Under the pieces are notes generated by a model. It had not been told where the DNA came from, searched no databases, and was given only the letters and a program-made list of their open reading frames with translations. Shown here one piece after another: positions 4,639-24,001 of a stretch of 64,000 nt of DNA. This DNA comes from an alpha proteobacterium BAL199. GTDB taxonomy: Bacteria; Pseudomonadota; Alphaproteobacteria; Thalassobaculales; Thalassobaculaceae. Positions within the stretch are counted from its first letter, which is position 1. Each line of letters starts with the position of its first letter. The translations under genes were made by a program, and so were the position numbers. Where the stretch lies: contig ABHC01000016.1 in NCBI GenBank assembly GCA_000171835.1, forward strand, positions 62,001 to 126,000, written 5' to 3'.

Positions 4639-6198
4639 ATGGCTACCCGAGTTGCAAACATCGACGACGTCCGTCTGCTGCACCGGGTCGCTGAACGTTG
4701 CGGGCTGGTCGAAGCGTTGGCGCCGTTGTGGGTGCGGTTTCCCGAGCCGTTCGCGTCGCTCGGGGCCGCGCAGGTCGGGACCAAGATGGTCCGCTTCTGG
4801 ATCTGGGCGCCGTTGTCGCGGATCGCCGAGAAGGTCGACACGGATCCGGAAGCCGGTGCCGCGCTGGCAGTGCTCGACCAGTTGCTGCGCCAAGTCATTC
4901 TGGACGCGATTGCCGGAATCGCCCTGAACCAAGTACCGGGCGTCGATACCGTCGTCGAGACCCTGGCAACCGCTACCGGGGCCGGAGCCTACGTCATTCA
5001 TCTGGCGCATATCCGGGTGGCTCAGCAGCGGCCCGCCGAGGTTGATCGGCTGTTGCAGCACGGCCTCAGCCGAGGGTTGATCGAGGCATCTGCCTTTGTG
5101 AGGCCGGATAGCTTAGCCGATAGCCGGTACGTTGCGCCCGCCCCCGAACATCGGTCGGCGATCACCGTGCCGACCATCGATGCCGACGGCCATCACAGTG
5201 TCGACCGTCCCCTGGGTCATTCGCCGGGCCGACCCTATGTCGCTGCCCTCGACCGGGTGGTGCTGGAGGAGCAGTTCCTGCTGCATGTTCCGGGGGTCGG
5301 CGTGCTGTCCGAGGGCGTGTCGTACCGATGGCGCTACGGCCTGTCGCAACGTTCGTTCCTATTGCGCCCCAGCCGCAACGAGGCGCTGCACACGCCGCTG
5401 GCGGGCGACGACCAGATCACCCGGGTTCCGTCGGCAACGTTCTTCGGCAAGACCGCGGTGCACGGGCATTTCATCATCGAGGGGCTGGAAAGGCTGCACG
5501 CCTACGCGCTAGCCGGGCAAGCCCTGGATCCGCCGTTCCTGGTACAGGACCTGCCGCGGTCTGGCTACCGGCGACTGCTGGCGGCGCTGGGACTGCCAGC
5601 CAACGACGAAGGCTATGCGGTCATCCGCAGCAATCGGGTGGCAGTAGAGCATCTGGTGATCGGCGGTATCGGGACCAGCCTGCCGGCAGTCAATCCGGAC
5701 TCCATCCGGTTCCTCCATGAGCGCGGCCGGCATGCGGCCGGCAGAGTCGCCGGCATCCAACGATCCGGAACCAAGCTGTACCTGGCACGCGGGCCGTCCA
5801 TGCGGCGCCGAATCGTCAACGAGGATGCCGTGCGCGGTGCGCTGGAGGCGCGCGGCTACCGTGCCGTGCAGCTTGAGACTTTGGACCTGATCGACCAGAT
5901 CGCCGTGATCGCCGAGGCCAGTGAGATCGTCGGCGTTCACGGCAGCGCGTTGATCAACCTGATCTGGGCCACCCCAGGAACGCGGGTCGGAGTGATGGTT
6001 CCCAGCACGTGGCGCGATTGGCGGCCTGGCCATGTCGAGATGCTGTTCGGTCAGTTCCAATCCGTTGATCTGGAAGCGACCGCCATCGAGTGTGCACCGG
6101 CGCGCGACGAACGCGGCGCCTTTCACCAGTTCAACGAAGACCTTGAAGTTCCGGTCGCCGCGCTCAAGCGCTGGCTGGGCGATCCGAGAACCGACTGA
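4639..6198 (+). CDS. glycosyltransferase family 61 (DUF563) protein
   Basis: About 519 residues. The C-terminal half shows the DUF563/GT61 layout: a histidine-rich entry segment (GHFIIEGLERLHAY), then an acceptor region, and a C-terminal EIVGVHGSALINLIWATPG block with the family's conserved HGS(A/G)L. GT61 enzymes transfer pentose or hexose residues onto surface polysaccharides or glycoproteins. The N-terminal 150 residues match nothing I recognise. Start 4639 has a GAAGG site eight bases upstream; an in-frame start at 4486 is possible but would encode a low-complexity arginine-rich leader. Its last 35 bases overlap the end of the convergent methyltransferase gene. Neighbours suggest a small surface-glycan modification group. 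Confidence 0.75.
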   Translation: MATRVANIDDVRLLHRVAERCGLVEALAPLWVRFPEPFASLGAAQVGTKMVRFWIWAPLSRIAEKVDTDPEAGAALAVLDQLLRQVILDAIAGIALNQVPGVDTVVETLATATGAGAYVIHLAHIRVAQQRPAEVDRLLQHGLSRGLIEASAFVRPDSLADSRYVAPAPEHRSAITVPTIDADGHHSVDRPLGHSPGRPYVAALDRVVLEEQFLLHVPGVGVLSEGVSYRWRYGLSQRSFLLRPSRNEALHTPLAGDDQITRVPSATFFGKTAVHGHFIIEGLERLHAYALAGQALDPPFLVQDLPRSGYRRLLAALGLPANDEGYAVIRSNRVAVEHLVIGGIGTSLPAVNPDSIRFLHERGRHAAGRVAGIQRSGTKLYLARGPSMRRRIVNEDAVRGALEARGYRAVQLETLDLIDQIAVIAEASEIVGVHGSALINLIWATPGTRVGVMVPSTWRDWRPGHVEMLFGQFQSVDLEATAIECAPARDERGAFHQFNEDLEVPVAALKRWLGDPRTD

Positions 6199-16817: not shown

Positions 16818-17171
16818 CTACGCCTTCGCGGCGGCGGCCACGCTGAAGCTTTCGCCGCAACCACAGCGCCCAGTCTCGTTCGGGTTGTTGAAGACGAAGC
16901 CGGAGAACAACTTGTCCTCCTTGTAGTCCATCTCCGAGCCGAGGATGAACATCACGGCCGTCGGGTCGATCAGGATGCTGACACCCTTGTCCTCGACCAG
17001 ATCCTCAAACTTCTTCCGATCCTTGGCGTACTCGATCACATAGCTGAGGCCGGAGCAGCCGGTGTTCTTCACGCCGACGCGCAATCCGATCACGCCATCC
17101 TCCGGCGACTTCGCCATCAGGTCCCGCACGCGCGCGGCAGCGGCGTCGGTCAGGGTGATCGGTGCTTTCAT
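16818..17171 (-). CDS. sufA: SufA/IscA-type iron-sulfur cluster carrier
   Basis: 117-residue A-type carrier that accepts clusters from the SufBCD scaffold and passes them to client enzymes. The three ligand cysteines are in the family pattern: one in TGCSGLSY and two in the C-terminal GRCGCGESF. Its length is typical. It is the last gene of the suf operon, 57 bp after sufT. The start is uncertain: an in-frame ATG at 17192 would add seven residues, and neither has a clear ribosome site. Confidence 0.93.
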   Translation of the reverse strand: MKAPITLTDAAAARVRDLMAKSPEDGVIGLRVGVKNTGCSGLSYVIEYAKDRKKFEDLVEDKGVSILIDPTAVMFILGSEMDYKEDKLFSGFVFNNPNETGRCGCGESFSVAAAAKA

Positions 17172-17228
17172 CGGCTGAAACATACAGGCCATCCGTCGGT
17201 GATCGCTCCCACACAGGTGGGGAGCATT

Positions 17229-17643: not shown

Positions 17644-18882
17644 TCATCCAAAAATTGCCCGGACCTTGTCCAGGCTGTCGGCCAAAGCGTCAATCTCGGC
17701 GCGGGTGTTGTACAATCCGACGCTGGCTCTCGCGGTCGACGACAGGTCCAGATGGTCCATCAACGGCTGGGCGCAGTGGTGTCCGGCGCGCACCGCCACG
17801 CCTTGGCGATCGACGATGGTGGCGATGTCGTGCGGATGCGCGCAGTCCATGACGAACGAGACCACCGACACCTTGCCCGCAGCCGTTCCGACCAGTCGCA
17901 GCCCATCGACCGCCGATAGGCGCTGGGTGGCGTAGGTGATCAGATCGCGCTCATGGGCGCCGATCCGCTCGACCCCGATCGCCTTGACGTAATCGATCGC
18001 AGCACCAAGACCGATCGCCTGGGCGATTGCCGGCGTTCCAGCCTCGAACTTGTGCGGCAGGTCGGCCCACTCGCTCTTCTCCAAGGTGACCGAACTGATC
18101 ATCTCGCCACCGCCCTGGTAGGGCGGCATCTTCTCCAACAGGGCTTCCTTGCCGTACAGCGCGCCGATCCCGGACGGTCCGTACAGCTTGTGGCCTGAGA
18201 ATACGTAGAAATCGCAGTCCAGATCCTGGACATCGACGGTCATGTGCTGGACTGCCTGGCAACCGTCGATCAGCGCCACCGCGCCGGCCTCGTGTGCCAG
18301 ACGGATGACTTCCTTCACCGGCACCACTGTGCCCAGCACGTTGGACACATGGGTTATGGCCACCAGCCGGGTGCGGTCGGTCAGCAGCGCCTTGAACGCG
18401 GCCAGTTCGAAGGTACCGTCCGGCCCGATCGGCACGCCCTTCAGCACCAGCCCCTTCTCGTCACGCAGCAACTGCCAGGGGACGATGTTGGAGTGGTGCT
18501 CCATGTAGGTGACGATGATCTCGTCGCCTTCACGCAGGTTCTGCCGACCCCAGGTCGCCGCCACCAGGTTGATCGCCTCGCTGGCGCCCCGGGTGTAGAT
18601 GACTTCGGCGGTCGAGCGGGCGTTGATGTAGGACCGGATGGTCTCACGCGCCGCCTCGTAGTCGGCGGTCGCCTTCTCGCTCAGGTAATGCAGGCCGCGG
18701 TGCACGTTAGCATAACCGGTCTCGTAGACCTCGCTGACTCGATCGATCACCTGCCGCGGCTTCTGGGCCGACGCGGCGTTGTCGAGATAGACCAGCGGAT
18801 GGCCGTGCACCTGGGTCGACAGGATCGGAAAGTCGGCGCGGTAGCTTTCGACGTCGTAGGCTCCGTTGGCGCCCATGCTCAT
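17644..18882 (-). CDS. sufS: SufS cysteine desulfurase
   Basis: 412-residue PLP enzyme of the class V aminotransferase fold that takes sulfur from cysteine as a persulfide for cluster assembly. The cofactor lysine is Lys232 in FSGHKLYGPSG. The catalytic persulfide Cys370 lies in RAGHHCAQP, the short-loop form typical of group II SufS rather than IscS. The start codon overlaps the sufD stop by 4 bp (ATGA), showing translational coupling. No separate sufE is in the operon, so another sulfur acceptor may be encoded elsewhere. Confidence 0.95.
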   Translation of the reverse strand: MSMGANGAYDVESYRADFPILSTQVHGHPLVYLDNAASAQKPRQVIDRVSEVYETGYANVHRGLHYLSEKATADYEAARETIRSYINARSTAEVIYTRGASEAINLVAATWGRQNLREGDEIIVTYMEHHSNIVPWQLLRDEKGLVLKGVPIGPDGTFELAAFKALLTDRTRLVAITHVSNVLGTVVPVKEVIRLAHEAGAVALIDGCQAVQHMTVDVQDLDCDFYVFSGHKLYGPSGIGALYGKEALLEKMPPYQGGGEMISSVTLEKSEWADLPHKFEAGTPAIAQAIGLGAAIDYVKAIGVERIGAHERDLITYATQRLSAVDGLRLVGTAAGKVSVVSFVMDCAHPHDIATIVDRQGVAVRAGHHCAQPLMDHLDLSSTARASVGLYNTRAEIDALADSLDKVRAIFG

Positions 18883-20168
18883 TCCTCCGCCCCGGCCACG
18901 TGCCGGCTCAACCAGTCCGCCGCAACCACCGTGAACGCTTCACGGACCGGTATGCGGGCAATCAGCGCGATCGCCTCCAGCACATAGGCCTCGACCAGCA
19001 GCGCTCGGGCACGCGCCTTCGGGATGCCGCGCGCCATCAGGTAGAACAACTGATCGTCGTCCAACTCGCCGACTGTCGCACCGTGGCTGCATTTCACGTC
19101 GTCGGCGTAGATCTCCAGCTCCGGCTTGCTGTCGACCTCGGCATCGCGCGACAGCAGCAGCGCCCGGTTCATCTGGAAGCCGTCGGTCTTCTGGGCGTTC
19201 GGCCGGACCAGGATCTTGCCCTGGAACACGCCGCGCGACCGTCCAGTCAGCACACCCTTCACCATCTCATGGCTGGCACCATGCGGTTGGGCGTGGTCGA
19301 TGAAGGTCGTCAGGTCGTGATGCTGATCGCCGGCGCCGAGATAGACGCCGTTGATCCGGTAGTCGATGTGCCGGCCAGCCAGCTCGGCACGGACTTCATG
19401 GCGGGCGAGCCGCGCCCCGGTCGCCAGCACGAAGCCGTCATAGGTCGCCTTGTCGGCCAAACGGACCGACGTCATCGCGACGTGGAACGCCTCTGCCGCT
19501 TCGGCCTGCAACACACTGTGGCTCAACCGTGCACCGGCGCCGACGATGATCTCGGTCACCGGGTTCGCCATGTAGGCACCGGTTCCCTGATGCACCGTCA
19601 CCAGATCAGCCGACGCACCCTCTTCGACCACTACCAGCACTCGTGGATGGGCAATCGCGGTCGCACCGTCACCACCACTGGTCGCCATCGACAGCAGGAT
19701 CGGTGCTTCCGGCATGACGCCGCGGGCGATCCGGATCGCCACACCACCGGTGAACTGGGCAGCGTTCAGCGCGGCGAACGGATGGGAGTCGATCGACGAG
19801 ACCGAGCCGAGACTCTCGCGAACCCAACCCGGAACCGTCGCCGGGTCGTCCAACGACACGATCTCGACACCGCCCGGCAGGCTTGAGGGCAAGGACTCAG
19901 CCCGGCCATTGGCAACGCGGATCTCGGTGCGATCCAGTTCGGCAAGCGCCGCCGGCAACACCGTGGGTGCCGGGCCTTCGGCCGCCACCGGCTGCAGCGC
20001 CTTCAGCGCGTTCAGGCCGGTGAACTTCCACGCCTCGGTGCGCGCACCCGGCAAGCCAATCTGGCGGTAGCGCGCAATAGCCGACCGGCGCTGGGCGACC
20101 AGCCAATCCGGCCCTCCGTCGTCCAGTGGATCGGTGACCAGCGGCAGGGTTGTGACGTCGGTGCTCAT
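18879..20168 (-). CDS. sufD: SufD scaffold subunit
   Basis: 429 residues of the SufBCD cluster-assembly scaffold. The C-terminal beta-helix and helical core (KCSHGATVGELDDDQLFYLMARGIP) are characteristic, and WKFTGLNALK near the N-terminus matches SufD. The start at 20168 has GAGG six bases upstream and lies 7 bp after sufC. It forms a heterodimer with SufB on the SufC ATPase dimer. The 3' end overlaps sufS by 4 bp. Confidence 0.94.
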   Translation of the reverse strand: MSTDVTTLPLVTDPLDDGGPDWLVAQRRSAIARYRQIGLPGARTEAWKFTGLNALKALQPVAAEGPAPTVLPAALAELDRTEIRVANGRAESLPSSLPGGVEIVSLDDPATVPGWVRESLGSVSSIDSHPFAALNAAQFTGGVAIRIARGVMPEAPILLSMATSGGDGATAIAHPRVLVVVEEGASADLVTVHQGTGAYMANPVTEIIVGAGARLSHSVLQAEAAEAFHVAMTSVRLADKATYDGFVLATGARLARHEVRAELAGRHIDYRINGVYLGAGDQHHDLTTFIDHAQPHGASHEMVKGVLTGRSRGVFQGKILVRPNAQKTDGFQMNRALLLSRDAEVDSKPELEIYADDVKCSHGATVGELDDDQLFYLMARGIPKARARALLVEAYVLEAIALIARIPVREAFTVVAADWLSRHVAGAEE

Positions 20169-20175
20169 CGTATCC

Positions 20176-20928
<753 letters not shown>

Positions 20929-20972: not shown

Positions 20973-22430
<1,458 letters not shown>

Positions 22431-22936: not shown

Positions 22937-22967
22937 CCTAATCTGTACCAGTTCGGTACGCATTAGG
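22937..22967. promoter_or_regulatory. Operator palindrome of the suf regulator
   Basis: A near-perfect inverted repeat: CCTAATCTGTACC, five spacer bases, then GGTACGCATTAGG. Eleven of 13 arm positions pair. It lies 6 bp upstream of the regulator start and overlaps the -10 element of the proposed promoter, the classic place for a repressor. Binding by the adjacent Rrf2 protein is inferred from position; the sequence is not an obvious E. coli IscR type 1 site. Confidence 0.75.
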
Positions 22968-22992
22968 TAGTCCCGGCTCCGGGGGCGGTCAA
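22964..22992 (-). promoter_or_regulatory. Promoter of the suf operon
   Basis: Reading leftward, a -35 box TTGACC at 22987-22992, a 17-base spacer, and a -10 box TACCTA at 22964-22969. The -35 matches the sigma-70 consensus at five of six positions; the -10 is weaker. The operator palindrome covers its downstream edge. Confidence 0.6.
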
Positions 22993-23113
22993 GGTGAAAG
23001 TGGACCGTATTGGTCGTGTTTGTCCAGGCACCGCGAATTGCCACTTCCGGAATTGTACCGGGCGACCCGCCTCCCTATCCTCACCCTCCCTCCAACCAAA
23101 CCATCTCGCTGCG

Positions 23114-24001
23114 GTGAACCAAAGCCGACCCCTGCTCTCCGCCGCCTGGATGATGGGCGCGCTCGCATCCTTCACGACCATGGCGCTCGCTGGCCGCGAG
23201 TTGACGGCCGAGATGTCGGTGTTCCAGGCGATGGCGCTCAGAAGCATCATTTGCGTGACGGTGCTGACAGCAATCGCTTGGCGTGTCGGCTTCGCCTCCG
23301 TGGCTACTGGGCGTCTTCGCCTGCACCTGGCGCGCAGCGCGGTGCACTACACCGGCACCTACGCCTGGATCTACGGCATCAGCGTGCTGCCGCTGGCGGC
23401 GGTGTTCTCCATCGAGTTCACGACACCGATCTGGACCGCCATCTTTGCCGCGCTGTTCCTGCGCGAGCCGTTCACACGCTGGCGGGCGATCGGCATTGCG
23501 CTCGGCTTCGCCGGCATCCTGGTAATCCTGCGTCCCGGCTCGGCCATGATCGACCTCGCCGCTTTCGTCGTGCTGGGCGCGGCTTGGTGCTATGCCGCGA
23601 CCTACGCGTTCACCCGCGCCATGGCGCCGACCGAGAGCCCGCTCACCATCATCTTCTGGATGAACCTCATCCAGTTGCCGCTCGGCCTCGGTCCGGCACT
23701 GACCGTCTGGGTCACGCCCTCGCCCGAGGCGTGGCCCTGGATTGCCGCGATCGGGGTTTCCGGTCTGACCTCGCACTGGTGCGTGTCGCACGCGATGCGG
23801 CACGCCGACGCCGCCGTGGTGGCGCCGATGGATTTCGTGCGGCTGCCACTGATCGCCGTGGTCGGCTGGCTGCTCTACGCCGAACCCTTCAACCCCTATG
23901 TGCTGGCCGGCGGCGGGCTGATCTTCGCCGGCAACATGATCAGCATCTGGGGCGAGCGCCGCCGAAGGCGACGGGTCAACCCGTCCGCATCGGGTAGCTG
24001 A
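23114..24001 (+). CDS. EamA/DMT-superfamily transporter
   Basis: About 295 residues with roughly ten hydrophobic spans in two EamA repeats, the layout of drug/metabolite transporters that export amino acids or other small molecules. Internal landmarks are the ALRSII...ARSAVHYTGTYAWIYGISVLPLAAVFSIEFTTPIW segment near the first repeat end and a lysine/arginine-rich C-terminus. The GTG at 23114 is used as the start; an ATG at 23150 is an alternative and neither has a clear ribosome site. It diverges from the suf regulator and converges on the truncated P450 gene, ending 38 bp from it. Confidence 0.82.
   Translation: MNQSRPLLSAAWMMGALASFTTMALAGRELTAEMSVFQAMALRSIICVTVLTAIAWRVGFASVATGRLRLHLARSAVHYTGTYAWIYGISVLPLAAVFSIEFTTPIWTAIFAALFLREPFTRWRAIGIALGFAGILVILRPGSAMIDLAAFVVLGAAWCYAATYAFTRAMAPTESPLTIIFWMNLIQLPLGLGPALTVWVTPSPEAWPWIAAIGVSGLTSHWCVSHAMRHADAAVVAPMDFVRLPLIAVVGWLLYAEPFNPYVLAGGGLIFAGNMISIWGERRRRRRVNPSASGS

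Follow-up and report, generated by a model that had tools for sequence, protein, structure and literature searches.

The region studied lies in a window of 64,000 nucleotides from the 6.1-Mb genome of an alphaproteobacterium close to Thalassobaculum, and it centres on the promoter of a minus-strand gene cluster; family models read the cluster in the order regulator-sufB-sufC-sufD-sufS-sufT-sufA, bearing out the sufBCDSTA operon that a preliminary description of this DNA had placed behind an Rrf2 regulator. The first gene encodes a 156 aa Rrf2-family SUF regulator (TIGR02944; 22460-22930); it is followed by sufB (20973-22430), sufC (20176-20928), sufD (18879-20174, start approximate), the cysteine desulfurase gene sufS (17644-18882), a sufT-like gene for a DUF59 protein (TIGR02945; 17229-17693, start approximate), and a gene for a SufA/IscA-like A-type carrier (16818-17192). 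The far border of the intergenic region is formed by a divergent EamA-family transporter gene on the plus strand (23114-24001), which is kept as a divergent neighbour of the SUF regulator order-wide (some 35 loci, ~50-88% identity); in T. fulvum ~1.1 kb of extra DNA lies between the EamA gene and the suf promoter when compared to relatives.

The regulator scores 134.2 bits against the TIGR02944 equivalog (NCBIfam, SUF system Fe-S cluster assembly regulator; suf_reg_Xantho), which passes the cut-off of 110.65, and its gene adjoins sufB. It falls below the equivalog cut-offs for IscR (63 vs 207.55 and 43.5 vs 275 bits) and for RirA/NsrR (54.6 vs 193 and 56.9 vs 182 bits). The cysteine cluster previously ascribed to the protein is present as C92, C99, C100, and C106; C92, C100, and C106, with the spacing C-X7-C-X5-C, are invariant in 108 aligned relatives, while C99 is variable. 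The fourth ligand of IscR is His107, and roles have been described for residues of its recognition helix (PMC6599224, PMC9973013). Identity between the regulator and E. coli IscR is 23%, and the (Cys)3(His)1 ligand set of IscR is not displayed by the regulator, as the three cysteines align and His107 is replaced by Arg109; residues 43-44 of the recognition helix are Ser-Lys in the regulator compared to Glu-Gln in IscR.

The minus-strand promoter is found as claimed, with the -35 element TTGACC (22987-22992), a 17-nt spacer, and the -10 element TACCTA (22964-22969), which reads TATNTA in several relatives; TTGACC is invariant in 11 of the 13 family genomes, where 17 nt separate it from a TA-rich hexamer. 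The transcription start is predicted seven bases past the -10 element, near 22957, and the operator centres given below as ~+6 and ~-52 are counted from it. Also confirmed in position is the 31-bp palindrome CCTAATCTGTACC-AGTTC-GGTACGCATTAGG, read on the plus strand at 22937-22967, which is present as a single copy in the 6.1-Mb genome. By itself this palindrome is no evidence for an operator, since palindromes with 13-bp arms, a gap of 5 nt, and no more than 2 mismatches number 2 in the window when 2.0 are expected by chance from dinucleotide shuffles; the operator claim was thus not carried by the evidence offered for it, the symmetry being at chance level.

The comparison with relatives is of a different weight. 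Upstream regions were gathered from 109 loci with an orthologous regulator, sufB being the next gene after the regulator in 108 of these; because some of the 109 loci are one genome reached twice, statistics were restricted to the 64 upstreams left after near-identical ones were taken out. De novo palindromic EM from random seeds on these 64 upstreams recovers GGACCAAnTTGGTCC within a 25-bp frame, with an LLR of 430.8 compared to 33-48 in shuffles. The AC-N7-GT pairs of the motif are near-invariant, G or T is found on the left at position 6 from the dyad, and with an A/T block at pairs 10-12 the 25-bp site is complete; the consensus is approximately WWW-N2-GKAC-Y-N5-R-GTMC-N2-WWW. A score of at least 10 bits is reached by 54/64 upstreams and by 0/64 coding controls. 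In a myxobacterial order picked by protein profile only, a few of whose genomes overlap with the training loci, the motif is present in 25/29 scored upstreams; a few myxobacterial relatives (L102, L105, L217, L218, L240, L250) gave no match when it was looked for. The strict motif pattern has one match per genome, always at the suf promoter, in 5/6 family genomes.

Conservation upstream of orthologous rrf2-suf operons, on which the preliminary description had let its operator stand or fall, is therefore found for the core of the palindrome. Two other statements of that description need to be revised: the motif was thought to be possibly lineage-specific, and the core precedes the same regulator in Alpha- and Gammaproteobacteria, Myxococcota, Acidobacteriota, and others; it was also considered not to be an obvious E. 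coli IscR site, and its frame W3-N3-KAC-N7-GTM-N3-W3 is the type-1 frame. When the motif profile is run on the E. coli iscR locus, the top two matches are two sites of the iscR promoter, 25 bp apart. A search of the available literature library found no published motif for the TIGR02944 regulator in Rhodospirillales-type bacteria.

The proximal operator is the 25-bp palindrome AATGCGTACCGAACTGGTACAGATT (minus strand, 22940-22964), with its dyad centre at 22952, predicted at ~+6. Its conserved core GTACCGAACTGGTAC (22945-22959) is of the TAC-N7-GTA type, not GAC-N7-GTC; under a profile derived solely from other families, no position in the 64 kb scores higher than this site, which reaches 16.7 bits with P ~2e-6 per position. 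Since the core recurs ahead of orthologous regulator-sufB operons, the proximal palindrome is very probably a real operator, and the comparative evidence likewise bears out the proposed placement of this putative site, adjoining the regulator start (22930) and overlapping the promoter. The extent of 31 bp is not upheld; the conserved site spans ~25 bp (22940-22964), and the outermost three pairs CCT/AGG, which are letters of the -10 and Shine-Dalgarno elements, are not kept. Only the window has all three of these pairs, 13-15 from the dyad; relatives show them at background level. A further window match at 4776-4794 (13.8 bits) falls inside a coding ORF and is attributed to chance.

A distal operator, overlooked in the preliminary description, lies immediately upstream of the -35 element on the minus strand: AAACACGACCAATACGGTCCACTTT (22997-23021), of the GAC-N7-GTC type, with its dyad centre at 23009, predicted at ~-52. 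It contains GACCAATACGGTC, an exact GAC-N7-GTC core, and its match at 23000-23018 is third in the 64 kb with 13.1 bits under the profile trained on other families. The centre-to-centre distance between the proximal and distal sites is 57 bp in 10 of the 13 family genomes, 56 bp in 2, and 58 bp in 1. Other arrangements are seen further afield; SAR116-type and related genomes (L020, L022, L026-L029, L031) have a site at the distal position only, at ~-69 to -76, and are without a proximal match, and in some Kiloniellaceae (L048, L049, L052, L054) two sites with a spacing of 33 bp lie ~160-199 nt ahead of the presumed start codon, positions which suggest a longer leader or a misplaced start.

The closest case that has been studied is RisR of M. 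xanthus, an Rrf2 regulator of subfamily IS6 that represses suf and isc in its holo form, the suf repressor being the [4Fe-4S] protein; its footprinted palindrome Tt/gGAC-N7-GTCCt/a has AT-rich flanks and lies over the promoter (PMC9973013). By its published description, RisR is similar to the regulator of this locus in being encoded first in the suf operon and in having three cysteines, and its operator core GAC-N7-GTC is matched exactly by the distal site, the proximal site being a TAC/GTA variant. The cysteines of RisR are however at 92/102/108 (C-X9-C-X5-C) rather than 92/100/106, RisR also governs an isc operon, and its protected region is ~30 bp per promoter compared to two sites 57 bp apart.

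The type-1 sites of IscR from E. coli and P. aeruginosa (PMC6599224) share with the sites of this locus the 25-bp frame, the AT flanks, the GAC-N7-GTC core, and the presence of two sites per biogenesis promoter; their tandem sites are 25 bp apart, whereas the spacing here is 57 bp. Against the 25-bp type-1 consensus ATASYYGACTRWWWYAGTCRRSTAT the distal site matches at 19/25 positions (random P ~5e-6) and the proximal site at 14/25 (random P ~0.012). In many myxobacterial suf promoters (L226-L253) the centres of two sites are exactly 25 bp apart, an arrangement like that of the tandem IscR sites of P. aeruginosa. A type-1 site is reported for IscR of X. campestris, a SUF-only organism (Fuangthong 2015, as cited in PMC6599224). 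IscR of Caulobacter crescentus is also an alphaproteobacterial Fe-S regulator with a single biogenesis operon (PMC11475020), however its reported motifs are unlike the motif described here and it is of another regulator family; the TIGR02944 cut-off is not reached in the Caulobacter control genome.

It is considered highly probable that the TIGR02944 Rrf2 regulator represses its own regulator-sufBCDSTA operon as a holo-protein, in a RisR-like manner and through two sites; the palindrome is most likely one of the two sites at which this sensor shuts off the Fe-S assembly genes when clusters are sufficient. The homodimeric regulator would carry an Fe-S cluster on C92, C100, and C106 and would bind the 25-bp palindromes, the proximal one over the end of the -10 element, the start site, and the leader, and the distal one just upstream of the -35 element. 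With plentiful clusters, the holo-regulator would occupy both sites and block RNA polymerase; when the cluster is lost through iron limitation or oxidative damage, binding would weaken and the regulator-sufBCDSTA operon would be induced. The comparative evidence is in favour of the negative-feedback model put forward earlier; binding, cluster dependence, and the direction of the effect are predictions, and repression by the holo-protein from two sites with release upon cluster loss is expected by analogy with M. xanthus RisR. The role of the distal site is most likely co-repression; the 57-bp spacing corresponds to ~5.4 helical turns, a distance at which simple side-by-side cooperation is not favoured.

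It is unlikely, but worth weighing, that the promoter is under dual control, with the proximal site repressing suf and the distal site, at ~-52 in the alpha-CTD region, activating it, perhaps through the apo-regulator. Such a role would fit a distal centre that lies upstream of the -35 element at a fixed spacing in every family genome, as well as the retention of the distal site alone in SAR116-type relatives, and E. coli suf is activated by apo-IscR; that activation, however, proceeds via a type 2 site, whereas both sites here are type-1-like and thus of the class bound by the holo-protein. RisR moreover represses only, and site A of P. aeruginosa, which is likewise upstream of the -35 element, is a repressing site. 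The distal site could instead serve the divergent EamA gene, the region being a regulatory patch common to both genes, and the conservation of this gene as a divergent neighbour across the order would agree with it; the spacing is fixed to the suf promoter and not to the EamA gene, which makes this still less probable. In T. fulvum the EamA gene is >1.3 kb off and the distal site remains 57 bp from the proximal suf site, which argues that the distal site belongs to suf. Binding of the palindrome by another Rrf2 protein (NsrR/RirA-like, contig C45) or by another factor is very improbable; the genome does encode at least two further Rrf2-type proteins, but the motif tracks the TIGR02944 gene across phyla and the paralogue loci are without it, with best scores of 1.6 and 2.6. 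That promoter and Shine-Dalgarno elements are symmetrical by chance has a negligible likelihood, as the expectation of two such palindromes per window and the promoter/SD letters of the outermost pairs speak for it only at the outer three pairs, and it is ruled out for the 25-bp core, which is conserved before orthologues and recovered by the held-out profile.

Further targets were sought by genome-wide scans with patterns and with a profile that uses sequence only; of the 455 candidates from the own genome this profile scored 150, so weak additional targets may be missed. The relaxed pattern matches 4 places in this genome and 4 for the reversed control, and single extra matches are therefore not credited; one of them, C61:90680, sits in a long ORF. 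The relaxed pattern also finds the palindrome AAATCAGACC-ACGGC-GGTCCTATTT between rluD and rpoH (L162:1501-1525; G000:C63:92576-92600), which is present with an altered spacer in G001, G002, G006, and G015. It is thus seen in five genomes of two genera (three Thalassobaculum-type, two of another genus) and is absent from the other genera of the order examined. Its design, AAA-N3-GACC-N5-RGTC-YTATTT, is like that of the suf operator; across the five genomes AAA, GACC, GTC, and TATTT are invariant and the five spacer bases vary. The elements around it presumably form a sigma-32-like promoter. The SUF repressor may, tentatively, have rpoH as a second target; recurrence at one gene is what supports this, since the overall match numbers of the pattern are near the control level. 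The idea is plausible because in Caulobacter crescentus IscR binds to the regulatory region of rpoH, and rpoH is increased there in iron deficiency (PMC11475020).

The site at this locus is a well-supported Fe-S feedback operator of an already known control type, and in this respect is ordinary; the two-site arrangement and the cross-phylum motif go beyond what the preliminary description had noticed. Two sites at a fixed spacing of 57 bp give the promoter a distinct arrangement, and the TIGR02944 family as a whole gains a concrete candidate operator; its best documented relative in the literature found is one myxobacterial regulator. If rpoH is indeed a target, the heat-shock sigma factor would increase as a direct result of Fe-S cluster loss, and Fe-S status would be tied to heat shock. 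The presence of the same site before the same operon in several phyla suggests an old and widely used feedback loop for Fe-S supply.
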